From a virus: a stretch of DNA of 36,126 nt. The notes under the pieces were generated by a model. That model saw nothing but the letters and a program-made list of their open reading frames with translations. It was not told where the DNA came from and made no database searches. Positions within the stretch are counted from its first letter, which is position 1, and every line of letters begins with the position of its first letter. The stretch covers positions 1-36,126 of IMG/VR virus record IMGVR_UViG_3300046727_000398; one strand, given 5' to 3'. A program made the position numbers and the translations under genes. This document shows, one piece after another, positions 5,624-36,108 of the stretch.

Positions 5624-5882
5624 CCTCTGCAACAACTGCGGCAAGCCCAAGGAAGACAACGAGTATTACAACCCGCGCTGCACTCCGTGCCAGACCGCCG
5701 TCGACGAGGCGCGCCAGAACGCCGCCAACGCCGAGAGCCGCGACGAGTGGCAGGCGAAGAAGGAGCAGGCGCTCGAAGCCCGCCGTGTCCCGCTGGGAAT
5801 GGCCGCGAAGAAGCGCCCCGATTCCCACTTCAGTCGGATCGACACGACCGACTACGAGGAACGCATCAATGAGGCCCGCTAA
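5613..5882 (+). CDS. Small zinc-ribbon protein
   Basis: The protein has 89 residues. C6-x2-C9 and C23-x2-C26, separated by 13 residues, are a classic zinc ribbon at the N-terminus. A charged helix (residues about 28-55) and a basic tail follow. The ATG lies inside the end of the previous gene, and its own end overlaps the next gene by 14 nt. Similar short ribbons occur next to packaging genes or HNH nucleases, but no His-Asn-His motif is present here, so nucleic-acid or protein binding is the likely role. Confidence 0.75.
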   Translation: MNRSLCNNCGKPKEDNEYYNPRCTPCQTAVDEARQNAANAESRDEWQAKKEQALEARRVPLGMAAKKRPDSHFSRIDTTDYEERINEAR

Positions 5883-6036
5883 GGTGAAGGCGGGCCTCTT
5901 CGAGTTTCTGCCCGTTCAGATCGCGATGTGGGCCGTGGCCGTGTGGATGACGGCCGCCGCCTCGAACATGGTCTGCTCGCTCCTGTGGAACGTCGTGTCC
6001 GCAGTCGCGGTACTCACCCACTCGCTGAGTCGGTAA
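5869..6036 (+). CDS. Small membrane protein
   Basis: The protein has 55 residues. After a basic N-terminus (MRPAKVKAG), residues about 13-50 are almost entirely hydrophobic (PVQIAMWAVAVWM and LLWNVVSAVAVL), enough for one long or two short transmembrane helices. GAGGAAC precedes the ATG at 5869. It ends 3 nt before the large terminase gene. Function is unknown. Confidence 0.65.
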   Translation: MRPAKVKAGLFEFLPVQIAMWAVAVWMTAAASNMVCSLLWNVVSAVAVLTHSLSR

Positions 6037-6039
6037 CTC

Positions 6040-7839
6040 GTGCGCTGGGACCTCGAAGCGGAACGGTCCCTATGGCGCGACGTCTGCGCCCCACGAGGCA
6101 GGAAGACACACCCGGACGCCCTCTGGTGGTTCGTTCGCATCGCCTGGGGCGCTGATCACTACCTCGACCGAAAGGGCGGGGCGCGCTGGCTTAGTGCCCG
6201 CGTCCACAAGCCCTATCTTCGTTGGCTTCAGTCACAGCTACTCGCGTGGAAGGAAAGCCGCTGGTCCGGTAACGTAGACCTCTGGCAGTTGGCGATCATT
6301 CTCCCGCGCGGCTTCGGCAAGACCCTGGTGACCACCAAGGCCGCCATGCTCTGGATTCACCTCGATGACCCCGACGCATCAACCGCGATCGGCTCCGAGG
6401 TCCAGCCGAAAGCCCAAGCGTTCCTGAAGCCTATCAAGAAGGTCATGCAGGGCCAGGACCCGAACGCGTGGTTCTCGTGGCTCTACGGGCTCTGGTACAA
6501 CCCGGAGCGCGAGTGGTCGCAGGACAAGGTCGAGCACGCCTACCGCCAGTCGGTCGGCATCTCGGAGCCGTCCTTCGACACGTGGGGCGTTGACAAGGGC
6601 CTCACAGGCTACCACCCGGACGTCGTTGTCTTCGACGACCCGATCAGCGCGAACAAACTGCGGCAGGGCGGCGACTCCTGGCTCCGCGCGGTCCAGCGCG
6701 CGCACGACGCGATCGAGCCGGCCGTGAAGACGAACGGGCTCTACATCCTCGTCGGTACCCGCTACCTCGTTGACGACATCCTCGGCAAGGCCCTGAAGGA
6801 CGACGGCGTCAAGTCGTGGGACGGCATGCCCTCCCAGGACACGGACCTGATGTCGGACATCGGCAAGGGTACGTGGCGCGTCTACTACATGTCGGGCCGC
6901 GACGTCGCGAACACCACGAACTTCCCCGAGGGCGAGCCCACGCTCCCCGAGGTGTGGTTCCACGCTAAGATGAAGCGCTACGAGAAGCGCGATCCCGAGG
7001 GCTACGCGTCGCAGGTCCTCAACGACCCGACGACCGGAGAGCACATGGCGCTGACGCAGGAGCAGGTCGAAACCATGCGGATCAAGTGCACGCCCTCGTG
7101 CCCCGCCGGCTGCTTCCCGCGCCAGCACCTCCCGCTGATCGAGTACGCGACCGTCCACTGCGACACCGCCTACAAGAGTCCCGAGCGCCGAGGCAAGGGC
7201 GACGACAACGTCATCGCTGTGTGGCTGCACCCGGCCTCGCGCAACGGGACCGTCTACTTCGATGGCGCGAAGCGCGACAAGACGTGGCGCTCCGAGGACT
7301 TCAACGACCAGCTAATCTACACGCTCTCGGACCTCAAGCGGCGCATGATCCGCGTCCGAGTCATCACCGCCGACAAGAACCCCGGCGGCCAGAGCGGGCT
7401 GTGGAAGACCTCCGTGATCCAGGCGATCGAGGGCGCGCGACTGCGCGTACCGGACATCCAGGAACTGAACCGCTCGGAAGGCAAGACCGAGCGCATCATG
7501 GTGGCCTCGAACTACTGGGCCGAGGGCCACGTGAAGCTCGTTTACGACGCGCCCCAGCGCGAGCGCCTCGAATACGAGATGGTCCGCGTCGGCAAGCTAA
7601 AGAGCGGCATCGACCTCTCGGACGCGTGCGCGGACGTCTTCGGTAGCGAGCGCCCGGGCCAGGACTGGTACCACAAGGCGCAGACGCAGTCTGGCTTCGA
7701 CCCGGACGAGGGCGCGTTCCCGCGCCAGCCCGGCGACGAAATCCTCAAGAACTGGCGCGGCCCCCTGCTCGACTCAGACGTAGACAAGCTCTACGACGAC
7801 CAGCACCCGGAACTCGCTCCCCCCGACGAAAGGTGGTAA
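6040..7839 (+). CDS. terL: Terminase large subunit
   Basis: This 599-residue protein is the ATP-driven motor and nuclease that packages DNA into the prohead. The N-terminal ATPase has a Walker A variant PRGFGKT (residues 89-95), Walker B VVVFDDP (195-201) and a coupling motif LVGTRY (237-242). The C-terminal RNase H-like nuclease shows D375 in TVHCDTAY, ITADKN near 445 and a last acidic cluster DLSDACAD (525-532). A Cys-rich insert (C350, C354, C358) sits between the domains and may bind zinc. The GTG start at 6040 has a weak ribosome binding site and probably relies on coupling with the gene ending 3 nt earlier. Length is normal for podovirus-type large terminases. Confidence 0.93.
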   Translation: MRWDLEAERSLWRDVCAPRGRKTHPDALWWFVRIAWGADHYLDRKGGARWLSARVHKPYLRWLQSQLLAWKESRWSGNVDLWQLAIILPRGFGKTLVTTKAAMLWIHLDDPDASTAIGSEVQPKAQAFLKPIKKVMQGQDPNAWFSWLYGLWYNPEREWSQDKVEHAYRQSVGISEPSFDTWGVDKGLTGYHPDVVVFDDPISANKLRQGGDSWLRAVQRAHDAIEPAVKTNGLYILVGTRYLVDDILGKALKDDGVKSWDGMPSQDTDLMSDIGKGTWRVYYMSGRDVANTTNFPEGEPTLPEVWFHAKMKRYEKRDPEGYASQVLNDPTTGEHMALTQEQVETMRIKCTPSCPAGCFPRQHLPLIEYATVHCDTAYKSPERRGKGDDNVIAVWLHPASRNGTVYFDGAKRDKTWRSEDFNDQLIYTLSDLKRRMIRVRVITADKNPGGQSGLWKTSVIQAIEGARLRVPDIQELNRSEGKTERIMVASNYWAEGHVKLVYDAPQRERLEYEMVRVGKLKSGIDLSDACADVFGSERPGQDWYHKAQTQSGFDPDEGAFPRQPGDEILKNWRGPLLDSDVDKLYDDQHPELAPPDERW

Positions 7840-7843
7840 CCCC

Positions 7844-8449
7844 GTGACTCACTATGTCGTGTTCGACATCGAGACGCGGAAGATGGCAGACGAAGTAGAG
7901 GGCGGGTTCGACGGGCTGAAGAAGGGCCTCGGTGGAATCTCCGCGATCGCGGTCTACGATTCCCTCCGAGGCAGGACGTTCCTCTACGATGACCACTCGC
8001 TGGAGTCCTGCGCGGCCCACATGGAGAAGGCGGACGTGGTGGTCGGCTTCAATTCGCACTCGTTCGACGCGTCCGCGATCGAGGGCATCCTCGGGCGCAA
8101 GCTGCGCCTGAAGTGCCACCTGGACCTCCTCACCATGATCTGGGACTCGCTCCGCAAGCGCGGCGTCCACCAGTTCAAGGGCAACAAGCTGCACGACGTC
8201 GGGCTCCGCACCATCGGCCGGGGGAAGACCGGCTCCGGCGCGCACGCTCCGCAGCTTGCGAAGGACGGACGCTGGGCAGAACTCTTCCAGTACTGCGCCG
8301 ACGACACCGAACTCACCAAGGACTTGTTCGAGCACGCGCTCACCAAGGGCGGCGTGATCGACGTAAACGGCAACTTCCTGCCACTCAGCTTCCCCTCGTG
8401 GGTTCGGCTGAAGGACGACGCGGATGCAGTACCAGCTTCAGCGAGCTAG
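7844..8449 (+). CDS. DnaQ-like (DEDDy) 3'-5' exonuclease
   Basis: The protein has 201 residues. All three exonuclease motifs are present: Exo I FDIET (D8, E10), Exo II VVGFNSHSFD (N70, D75) and Exo III YCADD (Y150, D154). It belongs to the RNase H-like 3'-5' exonucleases that trim single-stranded DNA or RNA. It is a stand-alone domain with no polymerase attached. It lies between the large terminase (4-nt gap) and the portal gene (26-nt overlap), which ties its expression to packaging rather than replication. It might process genome ends or debranch packaging substrate. That role is inference. Confidence 0.85.
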   Translation: MTHYVVFDIETRKMADEVEGGFDGLKKGLGGISAIAVYDSLRGRTFLYDDHSLESCAAHMEKADVVVGFNSHSFDASAIEGILGRKLRLKCHLDLLTMIWDSLRKRGVHQFKGNKLHDVGLRTIGRGKTGSGAHAPQLAKDGRWAELFQYCADDTELTKDLFEHALTKGGVIDVNGNFLPLSFPSWVRLKDDADAVPASAS

Positions 8450-10340
8450 GGGAACCGTAGCGCGCCGGGACCAGATCATCGAGATGGTCCTCTCGCGCCA
8501 CAAGTTCTCCGAGTCGTACTTCACCGGAATCCGCAACAGGCTCCCGCGCCTCTACGACCTGTGGCGTGGCGTCTACACCGGCAAGTACCACCCGCACAAG
8601 AACAACATCCACATCCCGCTCATCTTCCAGATGGTGTGGGCCGACGCGGCGCGCAAGGTCTCGACGAGCCTCAACAGCTATCCGCTCGTCTACTTCGCCG
8701 GCTACGGGCCCGACGACTCGAAGATCGCGCGCAAGCGCGAGGCGCTCTTCAACGCGCAGGCGAAGGACGCGGAGATGTTTATGAAGGAGGTCGAGACCTT
8801 CGTCACGGCCGACCTCTACGGCGTCGCCATCAGCGCCGTGATGTGGGACCACCGAGAGGAAGAGCGGATGATCGAGAAGGTCTCGACGCTCCCGCTCTCG
8901 GGGACCCGCGTCCGCCAGATCAGGAAGGGCATGCAGACGACGTTCGACGGGCCGAACTACGAGCCGGTCGACCGCCTCGACTTCTTCCCGCAGCCGAACG
9001 TGAAGCCCCGCAACATCACGTGGGCGATCCGCCGCTACTTCCTCGACGTCGACGACCTCCGCTTCCTCGTGTCGCAGGGCATCTTCGACGGCGACGAGGT
9101 CGACCGCCTCGTCACGGAGGACGGCGCCGGCTACACGATGCAGGCCACGGACGACGCGCTCATGCGCCGCTTCCAGGTCCGCACCGGCATGACCGACGAG
9201 GCCGCGCGCTGGATGGACAAGTACACGCGCCCGGTCGAAATCCTGGAGTTCTGGGGCAAGGTCCCGAGCGAGTTCGCGGACGATGGCGTGATGAAGCGCG
9301 TCATCACCGTCGCGAACCGCCGCTACCTCATGCGTAACCGACCGAACCCCTTCTGGCACGGCCGGCTTCCCTTCATCTTCTACTCGCCCACGCCGGACCC
9401 GCACTACTTCGACGCGCCCGGCAAGGCCGACATCGCGGAGAAGCTACAGATCGCCGCGAACCGCTACGTGAACCAGGGCCTCGACGTCGCTGACCTGACG
9501 ATCGACCCGATGCTCATGTACGACCGCAACAAGTTCATCAACACCCGCAACATGTACGCACGCCCCGGCAAGATGATCGGCGTCGACGGCAACCCGCGCG
9601 ACGTCCTCGCGCCGGTCGAGTACAACCTCCAGGGCTTCGCGCTCTCGCTCCAGAACGTGAGCCAGATGCGAAACTTCGTGGAGATGGGAACGGGCATCGT
9701 GGAGGACGCGATCGCGGGCCAGCAGGGCCCCGACCGCGAGACCGCGCGAGCGTTCATCGGTCGCCGCGAGGCAGCCGGTACGCGCCTGATGCTGGAGTCC
9801 CGCATCTACGAGGAGAACTACCTCGAACCGCTCGCGAACATGTTCATCGCGCTCGACAAGCAGTTCCTGGAGACGCCCCGCGAGGTGATGATCCTCGGGG
9901 ACAACGCGATGATCGACCCGATCACGGGCGACCCGATCGACCTCACCCGCGAGCACCTCTCGGACACCGACATGGTGCCGAACTACGCGGCTCGGGCCAT
10001 CGGCGCCACCGTCTCGCTCTCGAAGGCCGTGCAGCAGCAGAACCTCTTCCAGCTTCTCCAGATGGTGGGCGTCGCGCCGCAGATCATGGGCAGCATCAAC
10101 ATGGTCAACTTCATGCGGACCGTGATGCGCGCGATGGAGATTCCGAACGTTAACGAGATCATCCAGCAGCAGCAGGTGATGGGGCCGGCGCTCGCTGCGG
10201 CCGGCGGCAACGCGCAGCAGGTTCCCACCAGCGGCCAGCTTGCCCAGGGCGCGATCCCCGCGCCGCTCCAGGCCCAGATGGGCGGACAGCAGGCCACCGG
10301 CCTCGCGAACTCGATGCAGGGCGCGCTCCAGCCCGCGTAA
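8424..10340 (+). CDS. Portal protein
   Basis: The protein has 638 residues. It follows the terminase, has a mixed alpha/beta core with many acidic and aromatic residues, and carries a C-terminal Gln/Met/Ala-rich tail typical of podovirus head-tail connectors. Segments such as FHGRL-like FWHGRLPFIFYSPTPDPH and the long helices after residue 400 (ETARAFIGRREAAGTRLMLE) match the wing, stem and clip layout of large portals. Twelve copies would form the DNA channel at the unique vertex. The ATG at 8424 overlaps the exonuclease gene end. Assigned from gene order, length and general pattern. Confidence 0.85.
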   Translation: MQYQLQRARGTVARRDQIIEMVLSRHKFSESYFTGIRNRLPRLYDLWRGVYTGKYHPHKNNIHIPLIFQMVWADAARKVSTSLNSYPLVYFAGYGPDDSKIARKREALFNAQAKDAEMFMKEVETFVTADLYGVAISAVMWDHREEERMIEKVSTLPLSGTRVRQIRKGMQTTFDGPNYEPVDRLDFFPQPNVKPRNITWAIRRYFLDVDDLRFLVSQGIFDGDEVDRLVTEDGAGYTMQATDDALMRRFQVRTGMTDEAARWMDKYTRPVEILEFWGKVPSEFADDGVMKRVITVANRRYLMRNRPNPFWHGRLPFIFYSPTPDPHYFDAPGKADIAEKLQIAANRYVNQGLDVADLTIDPMLMYDRNKFINTRNMYARPGKMIGVDGNPRDVLAPVEYNLQGFALSLQNVSQMRNFVEMGTGIVEDAIAGQQGPDRETARAFIGRREAAGTRLMLESRIYEENYLEPLANMFIALDKQFLETPREVMILGDNAMIDPITGDPIDLTREHLSDTDMVPNYAARAIGATVSLSKAVQQQNLFQLLQMVGVAPQIMGSINMVNFMRTVMRAMEIPNVNEIIQQQQVMGPALAAAGGNAQQVPTSGQLAQGAIPAPLQAQMGGQQATGLANSMQGALQPA

Positions 10341-10354
10341 CGGAAAGGACGTAC

Positions 10355-11029
10355 GTGCGGTCAACCATCGGCATCCCCATCTCCACGAAGGGGCGCCCGA
10401 GCCTCAAGGAGACGCTTGGCAGCGTTCGAGACCAGGGCCTAGAGCCCGGCGACCGCGTCCTCGTGATCTTCGACGGCCCGCCCGAGGTCGGCTACAGGGA
10501 CCTCGTGGCCTCCTTCGGTCCCCAGTTCGAGAGCGAAGTGCGGCCGACGCGGAACCCCAGGGAGTACGGCCACGGCCAGTTGAACTATGCGCTCGACAAG
10601 CTGCGCGGTACCGTGGACTCCATCGTCTACCAGGACGATGACGACGTGTTTACGCCCGGGGCGTTCGACGCCCTACGCGCGCACCGCGACGCCAACCCGG
10701 ACCACCTCATCATGGCGCGGGTCGACAGCCACGTGTGGGGCCTCCTCTGGCGCGAGCCGAACTTCTCCACGCTCGTGCTGCCGGACGACGAGGACTGGAA
10801 GGACGCCGGCATCTTCGCTCTCGACGGTCACTGCGTCGTGATGCCGGGCCGCGCGCCCATCCTGCCGAAGCACGCGCTCTACTACAACGGGGATCAGGTA
10901 TACGCGCAGACCGCGAACCTCCTGTTTCACCCGAACGTCATCTGGTGCAAGAAGGTCATCTCCCTCACGCGCCCGCACGAGCGGGCCCAAGACACGGCCC
11001 TGCAGTATGCGGAGCACGCCTGTGACTAA
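10355..11029 (+). CDS. GT2-type glycosyltransferase (first of cassette)
   Basis: The protein has 224 residues. It has a GT-A fold pattern: an N-terminal strand with STIGIPIS, a nucleotide-binding region, and an acidic metal/nucleotide-sugar motif VYQDDDDVF (DDDD at 94-97), with acceptor-side strands after it. It would transfer a sugar from a nucleotide donor. The acceptor is unknown. It starts at a GTG with GGAAAGGA upstream, 15 nt after the portal stop, and overlaps the acetyltransferase gene. It is shorter than cellular GT2 enzymes and lacks a membrane anchor, so it acts in the cytoplasm. Its position suggests virion-protein or surface-sugar modification. Confidence 0.75.
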   Translation: MRSTIGIPISTKGRPSLKETLGSVRDQGLEPGDRVLVIFDGPPEVGYRDLVASFGPQFESEVRPTRNPREYGHGQLNYALDKLRGTVDSIVYQDDDDVFTPGAFDALRAHRDANPDHLIMARVDSHVWGLLWREPNFSTLVLPDDEDWKDAGIFALDGHCVVMPGRAPILPKHALYYNGDQVYAQTANLLFHPNVIWCKKVISLTRPHERAQDTALQYAEHACD

Positions 11030-11528
11030 ACTGGTCGCGATCCCCGTTACGACGCCCGAGCAGGTGGATCAGATGCGTCTGATCTACAACGAGTGCCGCC
11101 CCTTCCTCGCCACGAAGCCGCTCCCCGAGCGCACCTACGAGGAGCAGCAGGAGTGGTGGGCCTCGCTGCCGAAGACGACCTCCCGCGTGAAGGCCTTCCT
11201 CTACGAATCGGTCGACAAGCCCGGCGAGACCGTGGCCTTCTCGATGCTCCAGTGGAAGCTCACGGGCCGCACGACTCCGATCTTCGGCATCTACTCGAAG
11301 GCGCGGGGCCTAGGCTTCGCGCGCGAAATCATCCAGCACTACCTCGACGAGGCCGAGGGCCCCCTCTACGGGGAGATGCTCGCCTCGCACGAGGCGATCG
11401 TGAAGATGAACTGGGAAGTCGGCTGGCAGAAGATCGAGGAGCGGGACGGCGTGATCTACCTCTACCATCCCAACCCTCAGCGCTCCTACCCCGACTACGC
11501 GGGCATGCTGGAGTACTGGAATGGCTGA
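11022..11528 (+). CDS. GNAT-family N-acetyltransferase
   Basis: The protein has 168 residues starting at the GTG at 11022, which has GGAG 8 nt upstream. An in-frame ATG at 11007 is possible but lies deeper in the preceding gene. The acetyl-CoA site ARGLGFAREIIQHYL (residues 95-109) and the late segment AIVKMNWEVGWQKIEE fit the GNAT fold. Next to a sugar aminotransferase, the likely substrate is the amino group of a nucleotide-linked amino sugar, as in the QdtC/FdtC-type step. That substrate is inferred from the neighbours. It overlaps the genes on both sides by 8 nt. Confidence 0.8.
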   Translation: MTKLVAIPVTTPEQVDQMRLIYNECRPFLATKPLPERTYEEQQEWWASLPKTTSRVKAFLYESVDKPGETVAFSMLQWKLTGRTTPIFGIYSKARGLGFAREIIQHYLDEAEGPLYGEMLASHEAIVKMNWEVGWQKIEERDGVIYLYHPNPQRSYPDYAGMLEYWNG

Positions 11529-12111
11529 GGCCGCGCGCCTGACCTACATGATCCCCACCCTCGGGCGCACGACGCTGACGCGGGTGGTGGACCAGATTCG
11601 CGAGCAGATGCTTCCCACCGACGAGCTTATCGTGATCGCGGACGGCGCCATCGACGCGGCCCGCGCCATGATGGAAGAGCGGCTGGCGGACAACGTCCGC
11701 TACTTCGAGCACGGGCCCACCAACAACTGGGGCTCCGAGCAGCTTGACTTCGGAACGGAGCACGCGACCGGCGACTTCCTCTGCTACATCGGGGACGACG
11801 ACGAGATGCTCCCGGGCGCGATGGAGGCCGTGCGCGCCGGCGTCGAAGGGAAGGTCCAGCCCCACTGCTTCGCCATGTACCACAGCGGCCGAGTCCTAGC
11901 GAACACGCTGGCGGCCTGCAACGTGAGCGGCCAGCAGATCGTGGTGCCCAACGTGCCGGGCCGCATCCCCCGCTGGGCCGAGGATCGCTCGCAGCTTTCG
12001 GACTACGTCTTCATCCAGAAGGTAGCCAACGAATGGTCGGACGTCGGCGTCCGCATGCACGACGATCTGATCTGCCGCCTGCACGCTCAGAACTTCGGAA
12101 GGGTGTTCTGA
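11521..12111 (+). CDS. GT2-type glycosyltransferase (second of cassette)
   Basis: The protein has 196 residues. The N-terminal strand MIPTLGRTTL and the motif CYIGDDDEMLP (DDD at 92-94) are the two hallmarks of a GT-A glycosyltransferase. The C-terminal half contains a conserved-looking His near the end (VGVRMHDDLICRL). It is distinct from the first GT2 in this cassette but of similar size. The ATG overlaps the acetyltransferase stop by 8 nt, and its TGA overlaps the ATG of the aminotransferase gene. The acceptor is unknown. Confidence 0.75.
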   Translation: MAEAARLTYMIPTLGRTTLTRVVDQIREQMLPTDELIVIADGAIDAARAMMEERLADNVRYFEHGPTNNWGSEQLDFGTEHATGDFLCYIGDDDEMLPGAMEAVRAGVEGKVQPHCFAMYHSGRVLANTLAACNVSGQQIVVPNVPGRIPRWAEDRSQLSDYVFIQKVANEWSDVGVRMHDDLICRLHAQNFGRVF

Positions 12112-13199
12112 TGAACTTCAACATGCACCGCGATCGCCACCGCTGGGACGAACTGAAGGCCACCTTCGGGCGCGTCCTGGAGAGCGGCATCTTCATCATG
12201 GGCCCGGAACTCCGGGACTTCGAGCACGAGTTCGCGGCGTTCTGCGGAGTCGCCCACGCGGTGGGCGTAGGCTCCGGGACCGACGCGCTCAAGCTCTCGC
12301 TCCAGGCCCTCGGCGTGAAGCCCGGCGACGAAGTCATCTCGCCGGCCATGAACGTCGCCTACACGGCCCTCGCCATCAGCGCGGTCGGCGCGGTGCCCGT
12401 CTTCGCGGACGTGGACCCCAACACGCTGACGCTCACCGCCAAGACGGTGCGGCCCGTGCTCTCCTCGAAGACGCGCGCGATCATCCCCGTGCACCTCTAC
12501 GGCCGCATGGCCGACATGGTCGGGCTCAAGGCGCTCTGCGAGGAGAAGAACCTCCTCCTGATCGAGGACGCGTGTCAGGCCCACGGCGCGAAGATCAACG
12601 GCCAGCGCGCGGGCTCGTTCGGCCACACGGCGGCCTTCTCCTTCTACCCCACCAAGAACCTCGGGGCCTTCGGAGACGGCGGCATGATCGTCACCAACGA
12701 TCCGGCCGTAGCGAAGCTGGCCCGCACGCTACGTGACGGCGGGCGAGTGGATCGCTACGTGCACGCGGTGATCGGCAGCAACACCTGCCTCGACGAGGTG
12801 CAGGCCGCGTTCCTCCGCGTGCGGCTCCCCCACCTCGTGATCGAGAACGCGTGGCGCCGATGGCGCGCCGGCCGCTACTGCCAGGGCCTCAAGGGCGTCG
12901 GCCTCCTCTGGGACACGCCCGACCGCGCGTCCGTGCATCACCTCTTCCCCGTGTTCCACCCGAGGCGGGACGAACTGATGGCGCACCTGCGGGACCGGGA
13001 CGTGCCGTCCCTCGTCCACTACCCGGTGCCGCTCCACCTGCAGCCCTGCTACGAGTACCTGGGCCACAGCAAGGGCGACTTCCCCGTATCCGAGAAGGCC
13101 GCGAACGAGGAACTCTCGCTTCCGATGTTCCCCGACATGACCTACGACGAGCAGGACCGGGTCATCACCGCCGTGAACGAGTTCACGGGAAAGGCCTAA
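12111..13199 (+). CDS. DegT/DnrJ/EryC1/StrS-family PLP aminotransferase
   Basis: The protein has 362 residues, full length for the family. It shows GSGTDALKLSLQALG near residues 54-68, the strand PVHLYGRMADM, the cofactor-ring Asp in IEDACQAHGA (D153) and the PLP Schiff-base lysine in SFYPTKNLGAFGDGG (K182). These enzymes aminate a 3- or 4-keto nucleotide sugar with glutamate as donor. In this cassette the product would then be acylated by the GNAT and used by the glycosyltransferases. No dehydratase or epimerase is seen in the window, so the keto-sugar must come from the host or from genes elsewhere. The ATG at 12111 is chosen over an upstream frame extension because it overlaps the previous stop (TGATG). 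Confidence 0.9.
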   Translation: MNFNMHRDRHRWDELKATFGRVLESGIFIMGPELRDFEHEFAAFCGVAHAVGVGSGTDALKLSLQALGVKPGDEVISPAMNVAYTALAISAVGAVPVFADVDPNTLTLTAKTVRPVLSSKTRAIIPVHLYGRMADMVGLKALCEEKNLLLIEDACQAHGAKINGQRAGSFGHTAAFSFYPTKNLGAFGDGGMIVTNDPAVAKLARTLRDGGRVDRYVHAVIGSNTCLDEVQAAFLRVRLPHLVIENAWRRWRAGRYCQGLKGVGLLWDTPDRASVHHLFPVFHPRRDELMAHLRDRDVPSLVHYPVPLHLQPCYEYLGHSKGDFPVSEKAANEELSLPMFPDMTYDEQDRVITAVNEFTGKA

Positions 13200-13200
13200 C

Positions 13201-13596
13201 ATGGCAGGCGTGGACCCGAACTTCACCTTCTCCGGCGGCAGCCTCAACATCGAGGTGGCGCCCGAGCAGATGGCCGCGATGGAGTTCATCGTCGGCTCCG
13301 ACGCGTGGGTGGGGGTGTTTCGCCCCCTGCTCATGGGCATGCTTCGCAGCTTCTACCACGACCTCGCTGACCCCTCGCAGGAGCGCCGAGACCTCAAGTC
13401 CGACGACTACTGCCGTGGCGGCATCATGGTCGTGAACGCGCTTCTCACGTTCCCCGAATCCGCGATCACGGAGAAGTACCGTGAGCAGGAGCGGGTCGAG
13501 GGCGAGAAGTCGATCGAGCAGGACTACGCGGACCGCGCGTCCGCCGGAAGCATAGGGCCGCTGGGGTTCCCCACGAACCCGGAGGATGACTACTGA
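13201..13596 (+). CDS. Hypothetical protein
   Basis: The protein has 131 residues. A mixed N-terminal half has a hydrophobic stretch (WVGVFRPLLMGMLRSF), and the C-terminus is acidic (PTNPEDDY). It is translated one base after the aminotransferase stop and overlaps the next small gene by one base, so it belongs to the same transcript. It may be a head or morphogenesis protein, given its place just before the scaffold gene. Family not recognised. Confidence 0.7.
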   Translation: MAGVDPNFTFSGGSLNIEVAPEQMAAMEFIVGSDAWVGVFRPLLMGMLRSFYHDLADPSQERRDLKSDDYCRGGIMVVNALLTFPESAITEKYREQERVEGEKSIEQDYADRASAGSIGPLGFPTNPEDDY

Positions 13597-13823: not shown

Positions 13824-14849
13824 ATGGCAGACTTCACGCACCCGCAACAGGTAAGGGATGCCCTCGCGGCATCCATCGGGGAAGACGTCTTCAATCAGAT
13901 GGAGGCGCAGGACCCGCTGCACAACGGAGGAAATCCGCTGCCCCAGGCCCCGGACCACCCGGAGCCCGCAGCGGCACCCGCAGCACCCGCACCGGCAGCG
14001 CCCGCCCCGTCGGCCAACCCGACGCAAGCGGCGGCCCCCGCACCGGCTGCACCCGCTGACAGCGCACCTCAGCCCGTCGGACAACCCGCTACGGACGAGA
14101 AGGGCCTGCTGCTTGGCAAGTACGCCCGCACCCCGGAAGGTGAACGATTCGCCACCGACTCGTATCACCAACTCCTGCGAGCGAACAAAGAGCTTCTCGC
14201 CCGGGCCGAACGTGCCGAGGGGAAGCCGATCCCAATGACGCCTTCGGGCGTCCGCACCGAACCGGTACCGGCCGCAGTGACCAACGATGCCTACAAGGCG
14301 TTCGCGGAGAAGTACAACGTGGACCCCGAGGACATCGCGGGGCTCGTGCGTGCCGAGGCTCAGAGGACCGTGGATGCCGTGATGAAGCCGCGTGACGCCT
14401 ACGTGGAAGCGGATCAGTTCATGGCCTCGAAGTACCCCGAGTCGGTAACGCTGCGCGACGAACTCGTGCAGTACGTGCAAAGCAACCCCGACGTGGCCGC
14501 TGTGGTCCAGAAGGCTTGGGACTACGGGGACTACAAGGGCGCGCTGGAGATCGGCTGGAACCGCTACGAAATCGCTCGCCGCGCCGAACTGGCGCAGCAG
14601 GAGCGAGGCATGGTCGCGAACCAGCAGGTCCGCACCGAAGAGGTGCAGGCCGCTCGGAAGGATGCGGGGCTCATCACCAGTCAAGTCAGTGGCGTACACG
14701 CGCCCGAGGGAAAGCAGTACGCGCCCGACGCCGCGCGACAGGCAGAGTTGGAACGCCTGTGGCGTGCCGGTCACCGCGAACCCTGGCTGCGTGAAAACAT
14801 CGGCAGCACCCTCCCCGATGAGCTTTTCGGCGTGGGAGGGGGCAGCTAA
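13824..14849 (+). CDS. Putative capsid scaffolding protein
   Basis: The protein has 341 residues and lies immediately upstream of the major capsid gene, where scaffolds usually sit. The N-terminus is followed by a long Pro/Ala-rich disordered segment (about residues 36-90). A helical region rich in Ala, Glu, Gln and Arg then forms likely coiled coils (LLRANKELLARAERAEG and ARRAELAQQERGM). This is the usual scaffold architecture, with no enzymatic motif. GGAAAGGA precedes the ATG at 13824. The protein would assemble inside the prohead and leave before DNA entry. Confidence 0.75.
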   Translation: MADFTHPQQVRDALAASIGEDVFNQMEAQDPLHNGGNPLPQAPDHPEPAAAPAAPAPAAPAPSANPTQAAAPAPAAPADSAPQPVGQPATDEKGLLLGKYARTPEGERFATDSYHQLLRANKELLARAERAEGKPIPMTPSGVRTEPVPAAVTNDAYKAFAEKYNVDPEDIAGLVRAEAQRTVDAVMKPRDAYVEADQFMASKYPESVTLRDELVQYVQSNPDVAAVVQKAWDYGDYKGALEIGWNRYEIARRAELAQQERGMVANQQVRTEEVQAARKDAGLITSQVSGVHAPEGKQYAPDAARQAELERLWRAGHREPWLRENIGSTLPDELFGVGGGS

Positions 14850-14885: not shown

Positions 14886-15875
14886 ATGGCAGCACCCGGA
14901 AACTTCGGTGTCTACAAGTTCGGGTTCCTCGCCGGCAGCGGCGCGAACCGAGAGGACTTGCTGGACCTCATCACCAACGTGGACCCGTGGGACACGCCCT
15001 GGGTCACCCAGGCCCCCAAGGTCACGGCGAGCCACGTCGTGCACGAGTGGCTGACCGACTCGCTCGGAACCGTGGACGACACGGGCGCCGTCGAAGGCGA
15101 TGACTACGCGTACGCCTCGACCACCACGCCCGCTCGCGTCCTCAACGTGACGCAGATTCTCCGCCAGGACATCGGCGTGAGCGAGACGCAGCGCGCAGTC
15201 TCGCCGGCAGGATTCAAGGACGCCTACGCCTACGAAATCCAGAAGGCGACCAAGCGTCTCGCGATCAAGCTGGAGAAGCGCATCTTCGGCGTCACCTCCG
15301 CATCGGCCACCGGTAGCTCGGCGCTCGGTCGTGTGATGAAGTCGTTCCAGGACTTCATCGTCACCAACACGGGCGAGGCCGACGGTGGAACCAGCAGCGG
15401 TAGCGCATCGGTTCTCACCTCCAGCAGCTTCAACAGCCTGCTCCAGACCATCTATCAGAACGGTGGTAACCCGGAGCAGGTGTACGTCTCGCCGTCCGTG
15501 AAGCGCCAGATCAGCAACTTCGCCCTCACCCAGCAGAACCGCAACATCGCTGCTGCGGAGAAGAAGCTGGTCGCAGCGGTCGACATGTACGACAGCGACT
15601 TCGGTCTGCTGCAGGTCGTGCTCGATCGTTGGGTTCCGCAGTCGACGAACACCTCGTCGGCGGCAGCCTCGGCCCTGGACACCAGCGGTCGTCTCTTCTT
15701 CCTGCAGCGTGCGATGAACCGCCTCGCGTGGCTCCGCCCGATGCAGCACACCCTGATCGGCAAGCGCGGTGACGCGGTGGCCGGTATCGTGGTCGGGGAG
15801 TGCACCCTGGAAGTCCTCAACGAGAAGGCGAACGGCATGATGCTGCGCGTCAACAACAAGAGCAGCGTCACCTAA
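14886..15875 (+). CDS. Major capsid protein (DUF5309 / SU10-type, HK97 fold)
   Basis: The protein has 329 residues. The N-terminal part LLDLITNVDPWDTPWV followed by VVHEWLTDSLG is the signature pattern of the DUF5309 capsid family, typified by the phage SU10 capsid protein. The expected E-loop and P-domain region follow (ATKRLAIKLEKRIFG and later NGGNPEQVYVSPSVKRQISNF). It follows the scaffold gene and is followed by a strong hairpin. GGAG lies upstream of the ATG. It forms the shell of the head. No protease-cleaved N-terminal extension is apparent. Confidence 0.9.
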   Translation: MAAPGNFGVYKFGFLAGSGANREDLLDLITNVDPWDTPWVTQAPKVTASHVVHEWLTDSLGTVDDTGAVEGDDYAYASTTTPARVLNVTQILRQDIGVSETQRAVSPAGFKDAYAYEIQKATKRLAIKLEKRIFGVTSASATGSSALGRVMKSFQDFIVTNTGEADGGTSSGSASVLTSSSFNSLLQTIYQNGGNPEQVYVSPSVKRQISNFALTQQNRNIAAAEKKLVAAVDMYDSDFGLLQVVLDRWVPQSTNTSSAAASALDTSGRLFFLQRAMNRLAWLRPMQHTLIGKRGDAVAGIVVGECTLEVLNEKANGMMLRVNNKSSVT

Positions 15876-17587: not shown

Positions 17588-18868
17588 ATGAGCGCGCTGG
17601 TTGAGCAGAGCACCGACCTCCTCGGCATCTGGAGCTACGATCCCACGCGGCGCCCGAGCGCCTGCACCTACTACCGCGTGGAGGTCCCACTCCGCATGCT
17701 CACCCGCATGGGCCTCGGTGAGTCGTGGTGTTCGACCCAGAGGGACTCGCAGATCGAGTCGTTCCAGGCGCTCGCCCACTCGGACATTGGCCTCTTCTAC
17801 GGCACCAGCGGCGACGAGGACGGTCTCCCGAGCCGCACGGTCGAGTCGATCCGGATGATGCACTCGGGGATGACGCCGGACGGGCGCCGGGCCTACCCGC
17901 CCTCGCTCGTGTACGACCTCGACGACAACATCGACTACGTGCACCCCTTCAACCCCGCGTTCTCGCGCCTCGGCACGCGCAGCGGTTCCGGCGACCTCCT
18001 CCATCCCGGCGACAACATCACGACCGTGATGCCGGACGGCAAGGAACTCCCGGTGTGGCTCGACATGGAGACGGTCGACCCGGACGGCGTGGTCTTCGAC
18101 ATCTCCCGCAATCGCGCGCGCGTGAACTCCTGCCACGCCACCGCCCGCGCGTGTCATGGCGTCACGGTCCCGAGCGAGATGCTCGCGAAGTACTACCGCG
18201 ACGTCCACAAGTGCCCGCGCGTGTACGTGTTCCCTAACACGGTGGTAGAGGACGATTACTGGTTCCCTAATCTCGCGAAGCGCGACGATGGGAAGGTACG
18301 CATCCTCTGGCAGGGCGGCCAGTCCCACATGGGCGACTGGTGGCCGCTCCGCGACGCGCTCCGCGAGGTCGCCGCGAAGTACCCGCAGGCCGTGTTCGTG
18401 ATCTGGGGCACCCAGTACCCGTGGATTCACAACGTGGTCCCCGAGGCGCAGATCGAGTACCACGAGTGGCTGGAGTACTCGGCCTACAAGATCAAGCGCC
18501 ACGGGCTCGACTGCGACATCAACCTCGCGCCGCTCACGAACAACGTGTTCAACCGCTGCAAGAGCGCGATCAAGTGGTACGAGGCCAGCATCGGGCCACG
18601 CCCCGAGGCAACCCTCGCGTCCGGTATCGCTCCCTACGTCCCCGAGATCAAGGACGGCGAGACCGGGCTGATCTACAGGACGCCCGAGGAGTTCGCCCAG
18701 AAGCTGGGCACCCTCATCGAGAACGCGGAGCTTCGTCGCAAGCTCGCTGAGAACGCCCGCACGTGGGTCCGCGCCAACCGCACCCCCGAGGCCACGATCC
18801 CCGGCCTCTACGACTTCTACCAGGAACTCCGTGCGGTCCGCCGCATGGAGCATCTGGCCGAGAGGTAA
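17588..18868 (+). CDS. GT4-like (GT-B fold) glycosyltransferase
   Basis: The protein has 426 residues. The C-terminal half follows the GT-B Rossmann donor domain: ILWQGGQSHMGDWWPL, a strand AVFVIWGTQYPW, the block CDINLAPLTNNVFNRCKSAIKWYEA, and DGETGLIYRTPEEFAQKL with a final helical segment. The preceding part contains HGVTVPSEMLAKYY and VYVFPNTVVEDDYW, as in GT4 enzymes that bind a nucleotide sugar. It lies among virion genes rather than with the cassette at 10355-13199. It ends 3 nt before the adaptor gene. Likely role: transfer of a sugar to a virion protein or host glycan. Confidence 0.8.
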   Translation: MSALVEQSTDLLGIWSYDPTRRPSACTYYRVEVPLRMLTRMGLGESWCSTQRDSQIESFQALAHSDIGLFYGTSGDEDGLPSRTVESIRMMHSGMTPDGRRAYPPSLVYDLDDNIDYVHPFNPAFSRLGTRSGSGDLLHPGDNITTVMPDGKELPVWLDMETVDPDGVVFDISRNRARVNSCHATARACHGVTVPSEMLAKYYRDVHKCPRVYVFPNTVVEDDYWFPNLAKRDDGKVRILWQGGQSHMGDWWPLRDALREVAAKYPQAVFVIWGTQYPWIHNVVPEAQIEYHEWLEYSAYKIKRHGLDCDINLAPLTNNVFNRCKSAIKWYEASIGPRPEATLASGIAPYVPEIKDGETGLIYRTPEEFAQKLGTLIENAELRRKLAENARTWVRANRTPEATIPGLYDFYQELRAVRRMEHLAER

Positions 18869-18871
18869 CCG

Positions 18872-19813
18872 ATGTCGATGCTCCTCACCGACGCGCAGAC
18901 CTACGTCGCGCGCGTGATCGCGGGCCAGGACGACCCGAACCTCTACGCGGCCGCGCTCGACTCGATCCGCGCCACGTACCTGAAGTGGGGACGGGACCAC
19001 GACTGGACCTTCCTCCTGCAGGACAATTCCCAGGCCACCTCCATCGCGTCCTGTGTGATCGCGGGCGACGGCGTCACCGTCACCAACGCGACCGCCGGGG
19101 CGCTTTTCGGCGTCAACATCGGTCAGACCGTGACCGGCACCGGCGTGCCCGCGAACACGACCATCTCGGCCGTCACGGAGACGAACGGCCAGGGCGTGAC
19201 CGCGTTCACGCTCTCGGCCGCCTCGACGCCCGGCACCGTCACGCTCACCTTCGGCGCCTACATCCCGCTCGCGGGCTCGACGCAGGAGTACAACCTCCCC
19301 TCCAACTTCTACAAGCCCTACAGCGCGCGCCTGAACTCGAACGCGCGCACGCTCGTGTACTTCCGTCTCCGCGAGATCGACCGCAAGGTAGCGCGCCAGG
19401 ATCGGCTCGGCATCCCCACGCACTACTCGATCTACAACATCCACGTCTTCGACTCGACCGCGCAGCACCACCACCTCCGCCTCTACCCGATCCCCTCGCC
19501 TACCTCCACGACCGGCGAGAGCGTGTTCCTGAAGTACTACCGCGCGTTCAACATCGCCTCGACCGTGATCGACATTCCGGACGACTTCCTCTACGCGTTC
19601 CTCGACGATGCGCGCGTGCACCTCATGCAGATGAAGTCGGAGGACGACCCGCGCCTTCCGATCCTCCTCCAGAGCGCTCTGAAGGGCTTCAGCAGCGCCG
19701 TGGACCAGGACGAGCAGGAGAGCGAGGACGAGGACCTTCGCTGGATGAGCCAGCAGGAGGCCGGAGAGCAGAACTACGTGGACTTCGACCTCTGGTCGTA
19801 CTGGGACCGCTAA
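18872..19813 (+). CDS. Head-tail adaptor / tail tubular A-like protein, with inserted module
   Basis: The protein has 313 residues. The N-terminal helical part (SMLLTDAQTYVARVIAGQ and YLKWGRDHDW) and the C-terminal helical bundle fit a connector ring protein bridging portal and tail nozzle. It sits directly before the nozzle gene, as in SU10-type and T7-type phages. Residues about 58-128 form a separate Thr/Val/Gly-rich beta module (VTGTGVPANTTISAV to GTVTLTFG) that interrupts the connector and matches a module in the next protein. Coupled to it by TAATG. Confidence 0.75.
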   Translation: MSMLLTDAQTYVARVIAGQDDPNLYAAALDSIRATYLKWGRDHDWTFLLQDNSQATSIASCVIAGDGVTVTNATAGALFGVNIGQTVTGTGVPANTTISAVTETNGQGVTAFTLSAASTPGTVTLTFGAYIPLAGSTQEYNLPSNFYKPYSARLNSNARTLVYFRLREIDRKVARQDRLGIPTHYSIYNIHVFDSTAQHHHLRLYPIPSPTSTTGESVFLKYYRAFNIASTVIDIPDDFLYAFLDDARVHLMQMKSEDDPRLPILLQSALKGFSSAVDQDEQESEDEDLRWMSQQEAGEQNYVDFDLWSYWDR

Positions 19814-34614: not shown

Positions 34615-34688
34615 TGCGGGATCGTCTAACGGTAGGACAACGGCCTCTGAAGCCGAGAATCTGGGTTCGATCCCTAGTCCCGCAGCCA
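34615..34688 (+). tRNA. tRNA-Gln (CTG)
   Basis: Acceptor TGCGGGA/TCCCGCA pairs fully and the anticodon loop is CTCTGAA. D-arm (GTCTAACGGTAGGAC) and T-arm (TTCGATC) are present, with encoded CCA. It has an A-A mismatch at 27-43. First gene of the array. Confidence 0.9.
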
Positions 34689-34695
34689 AGTTTGA

Positions 34696-34773
34696 TGGGC
34701 CGTAGCGCAGCCAGGTCAGCGTGCCTACCTCGGACGTAGGCGGTCGCAGGTTCGAATCCTGCCGGTCCAACCA
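34696..34773 (+). tRNA. tRNA-Pro (CGG)
   Basis: Acceptor TGGGCCG/CGGTCCA includes one G-U pair. Anticodon stem CCTAC/GTAGG encloses the loop CTCGGAC. T-loop TTCGAAT and encoded CCA are present. Reads CCG. Confidence 0.9.
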
Positions 34774-34780
34774 TCTTCAT

Positions 34781-34858
34781 AGGGGAGTAGCGCAGCCCGG
34801 TCAGCGTACCTCTTCGGGATAGAGGTGGTCGCGGGTTCGAATCCCGCCTCTCCTACCA
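34781..34858 (+). tRNA. tRNA-Pro (GGG), lacks U33
   Basis: Acceptor AGGGGAG/CTCTCCT includes one G-U pair. Anticodon stem CCTCT/AGAGG pairs fully around TCGGGAT, which puts C at position 33 where U is nearly universal. The body is close to that of the preceding tRNA-Pro. Encoded CCA. If the loop were drawn as 9 nt the anticodon would read CGG, still proline. Confidence 0.85.
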
Positions 34859-34859
34859 G

Positions 34860-34934
34860 TGGGTCGTAGCGCAGCGGTAGCGTACGTGCCTTGGACGCAC
34901 GTGGTCGTGGGTTCGATCCCCACCGACCCAACCA
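34860..34934 (+). tRNA. tRNA-Pro (TGG)
   Basis: Perfect acceptor TGGGTCG/CGACCCA. Anticodon stem CGTGC/GCACG around CTTGGAC. T-loop TTCGATC and encoded CCA. It begins one base after the previous tRNA and completes the proline set. Confidence 0.9.
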
Positions 34935-34948
34935 GTTTCGGAGGAAGC

Positions 34949-35155
34949 GTGACCATCACCATCGAGCCCGTCATCCGCACGGACGGCATCACCTCCTGGG
35001 GCGTCTACGTGACGCTCGACGGAAAGAAGACGATGTCGTACGCGTACGAGACGGTGCCGCCCGACGACCCCGACTACGAGTCGCAGGTCCTCAACAAGAG
35101 CGCGGCCGGCCTCGTCGAGATCGCGCTGAACCTGAAGAAGGAACACTACAAGTAA
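34949..35155 (+). CDS. Small protein within the tRNA array
   Basis: The protein has 68 residues. GGAGG lies ahead of the GTG at 34949. The frame stays open further upstream through the tRNA-Pro gene, but that part is structural RNA and was excluded. Sequence: a beta-rich first half (ITIEPVIRTDGITSWGVYV) and an acidic helix with an LKKEHYK end. Function unknown. Confidence 0.65.
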   Translation: MTITIEPVIRTDGITSWGVYVTLDGKKTMSYAYETVPPDDPDYESQVLNKSAAGLVEIALNLKKEHYK

Positions 35156-35157
35156 TC

Positions 35158-35246
35158 GGAAGCGTGGCAGAGTGGCCGATTGCACCGGTTTGCTAAACCG
35201 GCAGCGCCCAACACGCTCGAAGGTTCGAATCCTTCCGCTTCCGCCA
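35158..35246 (+). tRNA. tRNA-Ser (GCT)
   Basis: Acceptor GGAAGCG/CGCTTCC and anticodon stem CCGGT/ACCGG around TTGCTAA. A long variable arm, typical of class II tRNA-Ser, is present. T-loop TTCGAAT and encoded CCA. It starts 2 nt after the upstream stop. Confidence 0.9.
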
Positions 35247-35251
35247 GTTTC

Positions 35252-35326
35252 GTCCGCGCTCCTGCTGGGTCGGGGGCGTGCCTGCAAAGCTCGCTGATCG
35301 CGGTTCGATTCCGCGCGCGGACTCCA
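35252..35326 (+). tRNA. tRNA-Cys (GCA)
   Basis: Perfect acceptor GTCCGCG/CGCGGAC with the discriminator T expected of tRNA-Cys. The anticodon loop is CTGCAAA, with one U-U mismatch in the anticodon stem. The D-loop is short. T-arm CGCGG/CCGCG, encoded CCA. Confidence 0.8.
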
Positions 35327-35331
35327 GTTTC

Positions 35332-35420
35332 GGAAGATTGGCCGACCGGTAAGGCTCTGGTCTCGAAAACCAGTGACGCGTCAAGAGCGCGACGGGGTTC
35401 AATTCCTCGATCTTCCGCCA
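35332..35420 (+). tRNA. tRNA-Ser (CGA)
   Basis: Perfect acceptor GGAAGAT/ATCTTCC. Anticodon stem CTGGT/ACCAG around CTCGAAA. Long variable arm (class II). T-loop TTCAATT and encoded CCA. Reads TCG. Confidence 0.9.
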
Positions 35421-35427
35421 GCATCAC

Positions 35428-35503
35428 GCTTCGTGTAGCTCACCGGTAGAGCGGCACCCTGAAACGGTGCGCGCTGTGGGTTCGACTCCCACCCGAAGCG
35501 CCA
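35428..35503 (+). tRNA. tRNA-Phe (GAA)
   Basis: The acceptor GCTTCGT pairs with CCGAAGC except for a mismatch at 7-66. Anticodon stem GCACC/GGTGC around CTGAAAC, T-arm GTGGG/CCCAC, encoded CCA. The discriminator is G rather than the usual A. Confidence 0.85.
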
Positions 35504-35508
35504 GACAT

Positions 35509-35583
35509 GCCCGATTGGCCGAGCGGCCCAGGCACCGGTCCTACAAACCGGCAAGGGGGGTTCGACTCCTCCATTGGGTACCA
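35509..35583 (+). tRNA. tRNA-Val (TAC), lacks U33
   Basis: Acceptor GCCCGAT/ATTGGGT includes two G-U pairs. Anticodon stem CCGGT/ACCGG pairs fully around CCTACAA, which places C at position 33. T-arm GGGGG/CCTCC and encoded CCA. This is the second tRNA in the array without U33. Decoding identity relies on the 7-nt loop reading. Confidence 0.75.
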
Positions 35584-35591
35584 AGCATCAC

Positions 35592-35668
35592 GGACTCGTC
35601 GTCTAGAGGCCCAAGACCCTGCCCTGTCAAGGCAGTGACCGTGGGTTCGAATCCCATCGGGTCCGCCA
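35592..35668 (+). tRNA. tRNA-Asp (GTC)
   Basis: Acceptor GGACTCG/CGGGTCC with one T-G pair. Anticodon stem CTGCC/GGCAG around CTGTCAA. D-arm GTCTAGAGG and GAC. T-arm GTGGG/CCCAT, discriminator G, encoded CCA. Confidence 0.9.
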
Positions 35669-35672
35669 CATT

Positions 35673-35748
35673 CGCGTCATCGTCTAGAGGCCCAGGACGT
35701 CAGGCTTTCAACCTGACTACACCGGTTCGAATCCGGTTGGCGCGGCCA
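35673..35748 (+). tRNA. tRNA-Glu (TTC)
   Basis: Acceptor CGCGTCA/TGGCGCG with one T-G pair. Anticodon stem TCAGG/CCTGA around CTTTCAA, T-arm ACCGG/CCGGT, encoded CCA. The D-arm shares the GTCTAGAGGCCCA block with the preceding tRNA-Asp, suggesting a shared origin of the pair. Confidence 0.9.
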
Positions 35749-35765
35749 AGCAACACGGAGAGCAG

Positions 35766-36026
35766 ATGGCGCGCATCACGCCGGAGCAGCAGATCGCGAA
35801 TCGTGTGAAGGCGGCCGGCACCAACTTCCTGAAGTCGCGCCGCGAGTTCGCAGCGGCCTCGGCGCAGGAGGACAGCGTGCAGCAGGCGAAGATTCCTGCG
35901 GCCGCGAAGCAGCCCCAGGGCAAGGTCCGCAACACGCGGCTCCTGCCCAAGGGCGTCGCCCAGGGACCGAGCGTCGGCTACCCCGACGGTCTCGCCTCGG
36001 GAGAGGACCAGAAGCAGTACTCTTGA
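35766..36026 (+). CDS. Small basic protein within the tRNA array
   Basis: The protein has 86 residues. It starts at an ATG with GGAG upstream. It is basic and Ala/Gln/Lys-rich (EQQIANRVKAAGTNFLKSRREF), with a more polar, Gly-rich C-terminal third. It sits between tRNA-Glu and tRNA-His. Could bind RNA, but no family is recognised. Confidence 0.65.
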   Translation: MARITPEQQIANRVKAAGTNFLKSRREFAAASAQEDSVQQAKIPAAAKQPQGKVRNTRLLPKGVAQGPSVGYPDGLASGEDQKQYS

Positions 36027-36032
36027 TGTGAT

Positions 36033-36108
36033 GGTGTTCGTTGCGTAACGGCAGCGCATCTCGGCTGTGAACCGAGAGGAACGGGTTCGAATCCCGTCGA
36101 TCACCCCA
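36033..36108 (+). tRNA. tRNA-His (GTG)
   Basis: Extra 5' G at 36033 (G-1) paired with discriminator C, the histidine mark. Acceptor GTGTTCG/CGATCAC has a single T-T mismatch. Anticodon loop CTGTGAA, stem CTCGG/CCGAG, T-loop TTCGAAT, encoded CCA. Confidence 0.85.

Follow-up and report, generated by a model that had tools for sequence, protein, structure and literature searches.

The locus raises the question of why genes for sugar modification lie among the head genes of a phage, which of them belong together, which sugar they would make and where that sugar would go. The window, that is, the whole stretch of DNA analyzed, is an IMG/VR contig of 36,126 bases classed as linear, a class that often denotes a fragment. 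Profile searches assigned the head genes (terminase phrog_38, portal PF23899, capsid PF17236 and adaptor PF24175) to the SU10 type, and the phage carrying the insert, with its SU10-type head, is taken for a podovirus. The insertion is flanked on the left by the portal protein gene (positions 8424 to 10340; SU10_portal PF23899, E = 5.8e-20) and on the right by a small conserved late gene, g13201 (13201 to 13596), which directly follows the portal gene in relatives with an empty site. Downstream lie a scaffold-like gene (13824 to 14849), recognized by its location upstream of the major capsid protein gene and its conservation among relatives, the gene for the major capsid protein itself (14886 to 15875; SU10_MCP PF17236, E = 6.8e-71), a possible acceptor of the sugar, and the head-tail adaptor gene (18872 to 19813; SU10_adaptor PF24175, E = 4.4e-9), all on the plus strand. 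These flanks bear out the placement given in the first-pass annotation, inside the late structural operon in the interval from portal to capsid. The terminase-portal interval harbors a DNA-polymerase-exonuclease-like gene (phrog_403, 7844 to 8449), which is kept in most relatives.

Four genes on the plus strand fill the space between the portal end (10340) and g13201. They encode a GT-A fold glycosyltransferase with a DDDD motif (GTa, 10355 to 11029; PF00535, E = 1.4e-9), a GNAT-fold N-acyltransferase (11022 to 11528), a minimal GT-A glycosyltransferase of 196 amino acids (GTb, 11521 to 12111; PF00535, E = 2.5e-12) and a DegT-family PLP-dependent sugar aminotransferase with the lysine K182 (12111 to 13199; PF01041, E = 2.2e-110). 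When each protein was searched against profiles, both glycosyltransferases and the DegT protein scored above the family cut-offs. The GNAT protein remained below the cut-off of PF00583 (16.3 bits, E = 0.012; cut-off 20.7) and was identified by its family alignment and by the fold of its AlphaFold model (pLDDT 74.5, pTM 0.72), which matched the GNAT fold at a TM-score of about 0.6-0.7 and an E-value of about 1e-7; the 305 PDB matches at E<=0.001 were led by GNATs. The GT-A fold of GTb was modelled as a complete minimal domain (pLDDT 91.7), and its best fold match was WrtF (TM 0.81), others being SpsA and a 190-amino-acid Leptospira glycosyltransferase; GTa was assigned by PF00535 and its DxD motif. 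The genes overlap by 8, 8 and 1 nt if the GNAT gene starts at GTG 11022, which is preceded by GGAG, whereas the alternative start at ATG 11007 extends the first overlap to 23 nt. D92-D93-D94 is invariant across 11 glycosyltransferase sequences, as are K182, the PLP lysine, and the ring-binding aspartate D153 in all seven aligned DegT proteins. Thus the first-pass annotation was right to describe four overlapping genes with intact catalytic residues (DDDD, DDD and K182). Base composition gives no sign of a foreign origin, as GC content (64-68%) and GC3 (91-94%) resemble those of the adjoining genes. No strongly hydrophobic 19-residue segment was found in the cassette proteins, which indicates that they have no membrane anchor, and no flippase or GtrA/GtrB-type partner is present in the cassette.

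The insertion site was compared in 29 related loci gathered via portal homologues. The portal stop and the possible start of g13201 are only about 10-19 nt apart in L012, L013, L016, L022, L023/L024/L035 and L031, and the two homologues overlap in L015; the corresponding gap in the window is 2860 nt. The nearest relatives, L009 and L011, which are more than 99% alike and share 68% of the portal and 83% of the capsid sequence with the window, carry 2133 nt at the homologous site (L009:9215-11349). These encode one open reading frame of two fused glycosyltransferases, followed by an NAD-dependent epimerase (PF01370, E = 8.7e-43). The occurrence of empty sites alongside different sugar inserts marks this as a site for insertions whose sugar genes can be exchanged. 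GTa is 56% identical to the first half of the fused L009 glycosyltransferase and belongs with the sugar insert of L009/L011, outside the unit formed by the other three genes. As the partners of GTa differ among relatives, the four genes were rejected as a single cassette. Of the compact pathway for an N-acylated amino sugar that had been proposed, the enzymes for amination, N-acylation and transfer are therefore present, but the conserved unit is the trio of GNAT, GTb and DegT. This trio is itself accessory, being missing from the homologous site in most relatives.

Besides the window, seven phage sequences carry the trio (L002, L037, L007, L008, L023, L024 and L038), with overlapping genes in every one; L033 is a fragment near-identical to L037, and L035 is near-identical to L024. 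This recurrence argues against a chance association. Homologues of GNAT, GTb and the portal were retrieved from the viral collection with two-row alignments, whereas single-sequence queries gave none. The window and L002 share the gene order GNAT-GTb-DegT; the remaining trio phages have GNAT-DegT-GTb. In a DegT-profile scan of viral contigs, which gave 80 loci, the GNAT of the trio occurred only next to DegT proteins of the trio clade. One further locus (L064:4662-7675) holds a trio-clade DegT and GTb without the GNAT, and another glycosyltransferase-like reading frame upstream. All eight phage DegT proteins form one clade (support 100/99), which is split into the window, L002 and L037 on one side and L007, L008, L023, L024 and L038 on the other. 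The GTb tree shows compatible groups; the GNAT tree is mostly unresolved. The agreement of the DegT and GTb trees indicates a phage module of long standing whose genes move together. Its location varies: the trio lies in the terminase-portal interval in L002 and L037, upstream of the terminase in L023 and L024, after and overlapping an M15-peptidase-like gene in L007, and amid non-structural genes in the 65-kb contigs L008 and L038. L038 and L019 are parts of one 65-kb contig, and the portal-capsid region in L019 lacks the trio. Hence the trio can exist outside the structural operon, and late expression alongside virion genes does not hold for all members. Taken together, the trio is a phage-specific set that recurs in several distantly related phages at different places in the genome. 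Protein searches of the phage collection gave no match for GNAT and GTa, which are thus nearly absent from GenBank phages.

An accessory set of genes that is absent from the homologous site in most relatives could also be passing cargo with no fixed phage function. This is highly improbable, as the catalytic residues are retained at 35-50% identity, the genes overlap in all members, the trees are compatible, dN/dS is below 1 in the tested pairs and no broken copy occurred among the members seen.

The sugar was narrowed down from the aminotransferase. Among solved structures, the DegT profile scored best with DesV, 7b0d (filed as glutamine--scyllo-inositol transaminase), QdtB, 7n63, 5u1z and WbpE, so that DesV and QdtB are within the top three PDB matches. 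The aminotransferases acting on 3-keto sugars reached 434 (DesV), 411 (QdtB) and 344 bits (WbpE), whereas the 4-amino enzymes scored 90 to 230 bits lower (perosamine synthetase 251, ArnB 239, WecE-type 200). The DegT is thus more similar to the 3-keto-sugar subgroup of QdtB, FdtB and DesV than to 4-keto enzymes. In the tree, the phage clade stands beside, and is not nested within, the FdtA-linked clade. The near bacterial DegT genes sit in polysaccharide clusters. Among those whose surroundings were read, an FdtA/QdtA gene is located close by in Tritonibacter, Aminobacter and Streptomyces NBC_01276, whereas none was seen around those of Streptomyces RerS4 and Azospirillum; in Rhizobium and Sinorhizobium the neighbors are a Gfo/Idh/MocA oxidoreductase and acyltransferases. 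The GNAT adjacent to the Tritonibacter DegT was considered as a relative and is not detectably of the trio GNAT family. The sole strong bacterial homologue of the trio GNAT (48% identity) was found in a Candidatus Symbiothrix MAG (L041) by scanning the bacterial collection with a four-row alignment, a seven-sequence alignment being too diverse; wider genome searches in the phylum and order of Symbiothrix gave weak generic GNAT matches or none. On this single MAG contig of 4.3 kb, the GNAT gene directly follows FdtA (PF05523, E = 7.4e-53) and lies four genes before a DegT gene. The genes between GNAT and DegT encode KAS III, an SDR and an enoyl-CoA hydratase, a hint that the acyl group may be other than acetyl. 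Since the DegT is nearest to 3-keto enzymes and a GNAT homologue adjoins FdtA, the pathway probably yields an NDP-3-N-acylamino-(6-deoxy)hexose, in which the 3-position, the dTDP carrier and the nature of the acyl group are predictions from homology.

The precursor step had been reported as missing, and indeed RmlA, RmlB and FdtA have no family match in the contig, and a search of the window for a nucleotide-sugar dehydratase or epimerase gave no family member. The claim of a missing keto sugar can be made narrower, because the precursor is probably a 3-keto sugar. Such a sugar is normally made by FdtA/QdtA from the product of RmlB. Among contigs that may be incomplete, FdtA (PF05523) was absent from the window and 19 related contigs, RmlA from the 10 contigs searched, including the window, and the epimerase/dehydratase family of RmlB from all 20 contigs except L009/L011. 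Hosts that make the 3-keto sugar usually own an aminotransferase, so the benefit of a phage copy is hard to see, which counts against the proposed pathway. The absence of an encoded FdtA would be accounted for if the amine were placed at C4, starting from dTDP-4-keto-6-deoxyglucose, a common intermediate of the rhamnose pathway, as in WecE/WecD; no ketoisomerase would be needed, and WecD, encoded next to WecE, is annotated as a sugar N-acetyltransferase. This alternative, which concerns only the chemistry and fits any target, is rather unlikely, as the DegT groups with 3-keto enzymes both by sequence score and in the tree, well away from WecE and ArnB.

Several known systems resemble parts of this gene set. 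In the pathways to dTDP-3-amino-3,6-dideoxyhexoses of O-antigens, S-layers and macrolides (QdtB, FdtB or DesV with FdtA/QdtA), the aminotransferase is similar to the phage DegT over its full length and has the same catalytic residues. The phage proteins differ in forming a separate clade on contigs that lacked FdtA, RmlA and RmlB in our searches, and in having a GNAT-fold acylating partner, whereas the usual partner is a left-handed beta-helix transferase. The WecE/WecD and PseC/PseH systems share the pairing of a DegT protein with a GNAT acyltransferase, but act on 4-keto sugars, and the phage DegT scores far under the cut-offs of their models (for PseC 212 versus 423.5 bits). The viral contigs L067, L070, L073, L078, L114 and L123 also encode a phage DegT of a probable 3-amino-sugar route, but with FdtA beside or near it and without the trio GNAT. 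A fuller phage route of this kind is found at L067:2161-11752, with several glycosyltransferases, DegT, FdtA and a hexapeptide-type acyltransferase.

A third glycosyltransferase of the GT4/GT-B type is encoded on the plus strand in the interval between the major capsid protein and the adaptor (17588 to 18868; PF13524, E = 2.3e-7; phrog_7162, E = 4.2e-25). It was overlooked in the first reading. The gene is present downstream of the capsid gene in 13 related contigs (L002, L009, L011, L013, L014, L015, L019, L022, L024, L026, L032, L035 and L036), or 11 allowing for the near-duplicates L009/L011 and L024/L035, and is core to the lineage with or without the trio. Its only relatives in GenBank phages are in six records, including the Streptomyces phages Zuko and KimJongPhill.

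In the reading we prefer, to which we give about an even chance, the insert serves as an accessory locus for sugar decoration. The DegT would aminate a 3-keto nucleotide sugar of host origin at C3, the most likely substrate being dTDP-3-keto-6-deoxyhexose, and the GNAT would acylate the resulting amine. GTb, with the help of GTa and the lineage-core glycosyltransferase (17588-18868), would then move the 3-acylamino sugar, either singly or capping a short chain, onto a soluble acceptor, most likely a virion protein from the same late operon. As to the target, we favor glycosylation of the capsid or tail as a working guess. This is supported by the glycosyltransferase genes in the structural operon, both in the cassette and between capsid and adaptor, by the insertion site amid head genes and by the lack of membrane segments in the cassette proteins. 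The position in the structural operon, which had been taken as a pointer to the virion, is real in this phage but not diagnostic, as L007, L008 and L038/L019 have the trio outside the structural operon. According to papers citing Freeman et al. (2023), mycobacteriophage virions carry glycans on capsid and tail-tube proteins, and the phages encode glycosyltransferases. The phage studied here differs in that it also encodes enzymes that would make an amino sugar, and glycosylation of its virion is a prediction. Sugar genes adjoin head genes in other phages as well: the Manatee Spring podovirus Podoviridae sp. ctQWt234 (MW202801) has a comparable island after the major capsid protein, and Zuko has a UDP-glucose dehydrogenase and a glycosyltransferase upstream of the terminase, but these are other enzyme sets without the GNAT-DegT-GTb trio.

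The main rival to virion decoration is the late transfer of the sugar to a glycan on the host surface (LPS, capsule or teichoic acid), which would block superinfection or the re-adsorption of progeny to debris. The nearest folds of GTb, for example WrtF and SpsA, are bacterial envelope glycosyltransferases, the near bacterial DegT proteins belong to polysaccharide clusters, and the L007 trio overlaps the M15-peptidase-like gene. This target is possible but clearly the less probable one, given that the cassette provides neither a membrane anchor nor a flippase or GtrA/GtrB-type partner, and that the core glycosyltransferase and the insertion site lie amid head genes. A Gtr-type seroconversion cassette encodes membrane-bound GtrA, GtrB and Gtr proteins, whereas the phage cassette proteins have no such hydrophobic segment. 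Attachment of the sugar to phage DNA, as a hypermodified base protecting against restriction, is very unlikely. Viral glycosyltransferases are known to attach diverse glycans to DNA (Pyle et al. 2024, as cited in PMC12619734), but the dCMP/dUMP hydroxymethylase of the thymidylate-synthase type (PF00303) on which T4-like DNA glucosylation relies was absent from 10 contigs of up to 65 kb, which may be incomplete genomes.

In the one close pair available, GNAT and GTb have diverged far more than the flanking genes. Across terminase, portal and capsid, the DNA of L023 and L024 is mostly 88-97% identical; identity is about 93% in the N-terminal half of DegT, but only 64-76% across GNAT and 77-79% across GTb. 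The proteins share 61% (GNAT), 73% (GTb) and 90% (DegT) of their residues, with dN/dS values of 0.73, 0.58 and 0.30, respectively; this divergence of GNAT and GTb stems from one close pair and could be explained by recombination. Tentatively, the trio might be a phage-evolved mobile module for glycan diversification, in which amination stays constant, whereas the acyl group (through GNAT) and the linkage or acceptor (through the glycosyltransferase) change fast. If so, distantly related phages could cover their virions with 3-acylamino sugars that derive from the host and vary from phage to phage, forming a shield that can be altered. The common view of phages is mostly that they borrow or trim the sugars of their hosts. 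The analysis redefines the unit as a phage-specific trio and narrows the sugar to a probable 3-acylamino hexose. If borne out, a trio for making an unusual amino sugar and attaching it would be a genetic handle on the surface chemistry of virions and would make it testable whether variable phage glycans act as a shield or change the host surface. It also offers a few candidate enzymes for N-acylamino sugars.

Two further features of these genomes were observed. The gene of the major capsid protein is interrupted in relatives at about residue 35. Similar interruptions in L014 (about 5835-6405) and L019 (just upstream of 15489) had no Rfam match in the default scan; the insert of about 590 bp in L013 (L013:14212-14802), apparently with a small open reading frame, matches an Rfam group I intron at 47.5 bits (E = 7e-11), slightly under the gathering score of 50. 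The right end of the window, downstream of the structural genes, contains a cluster of 12 tRNA genes (34615-36108) for Gln, Pro (three), Ser (two), Cys, Phe, Val, Asp, Glu and His.
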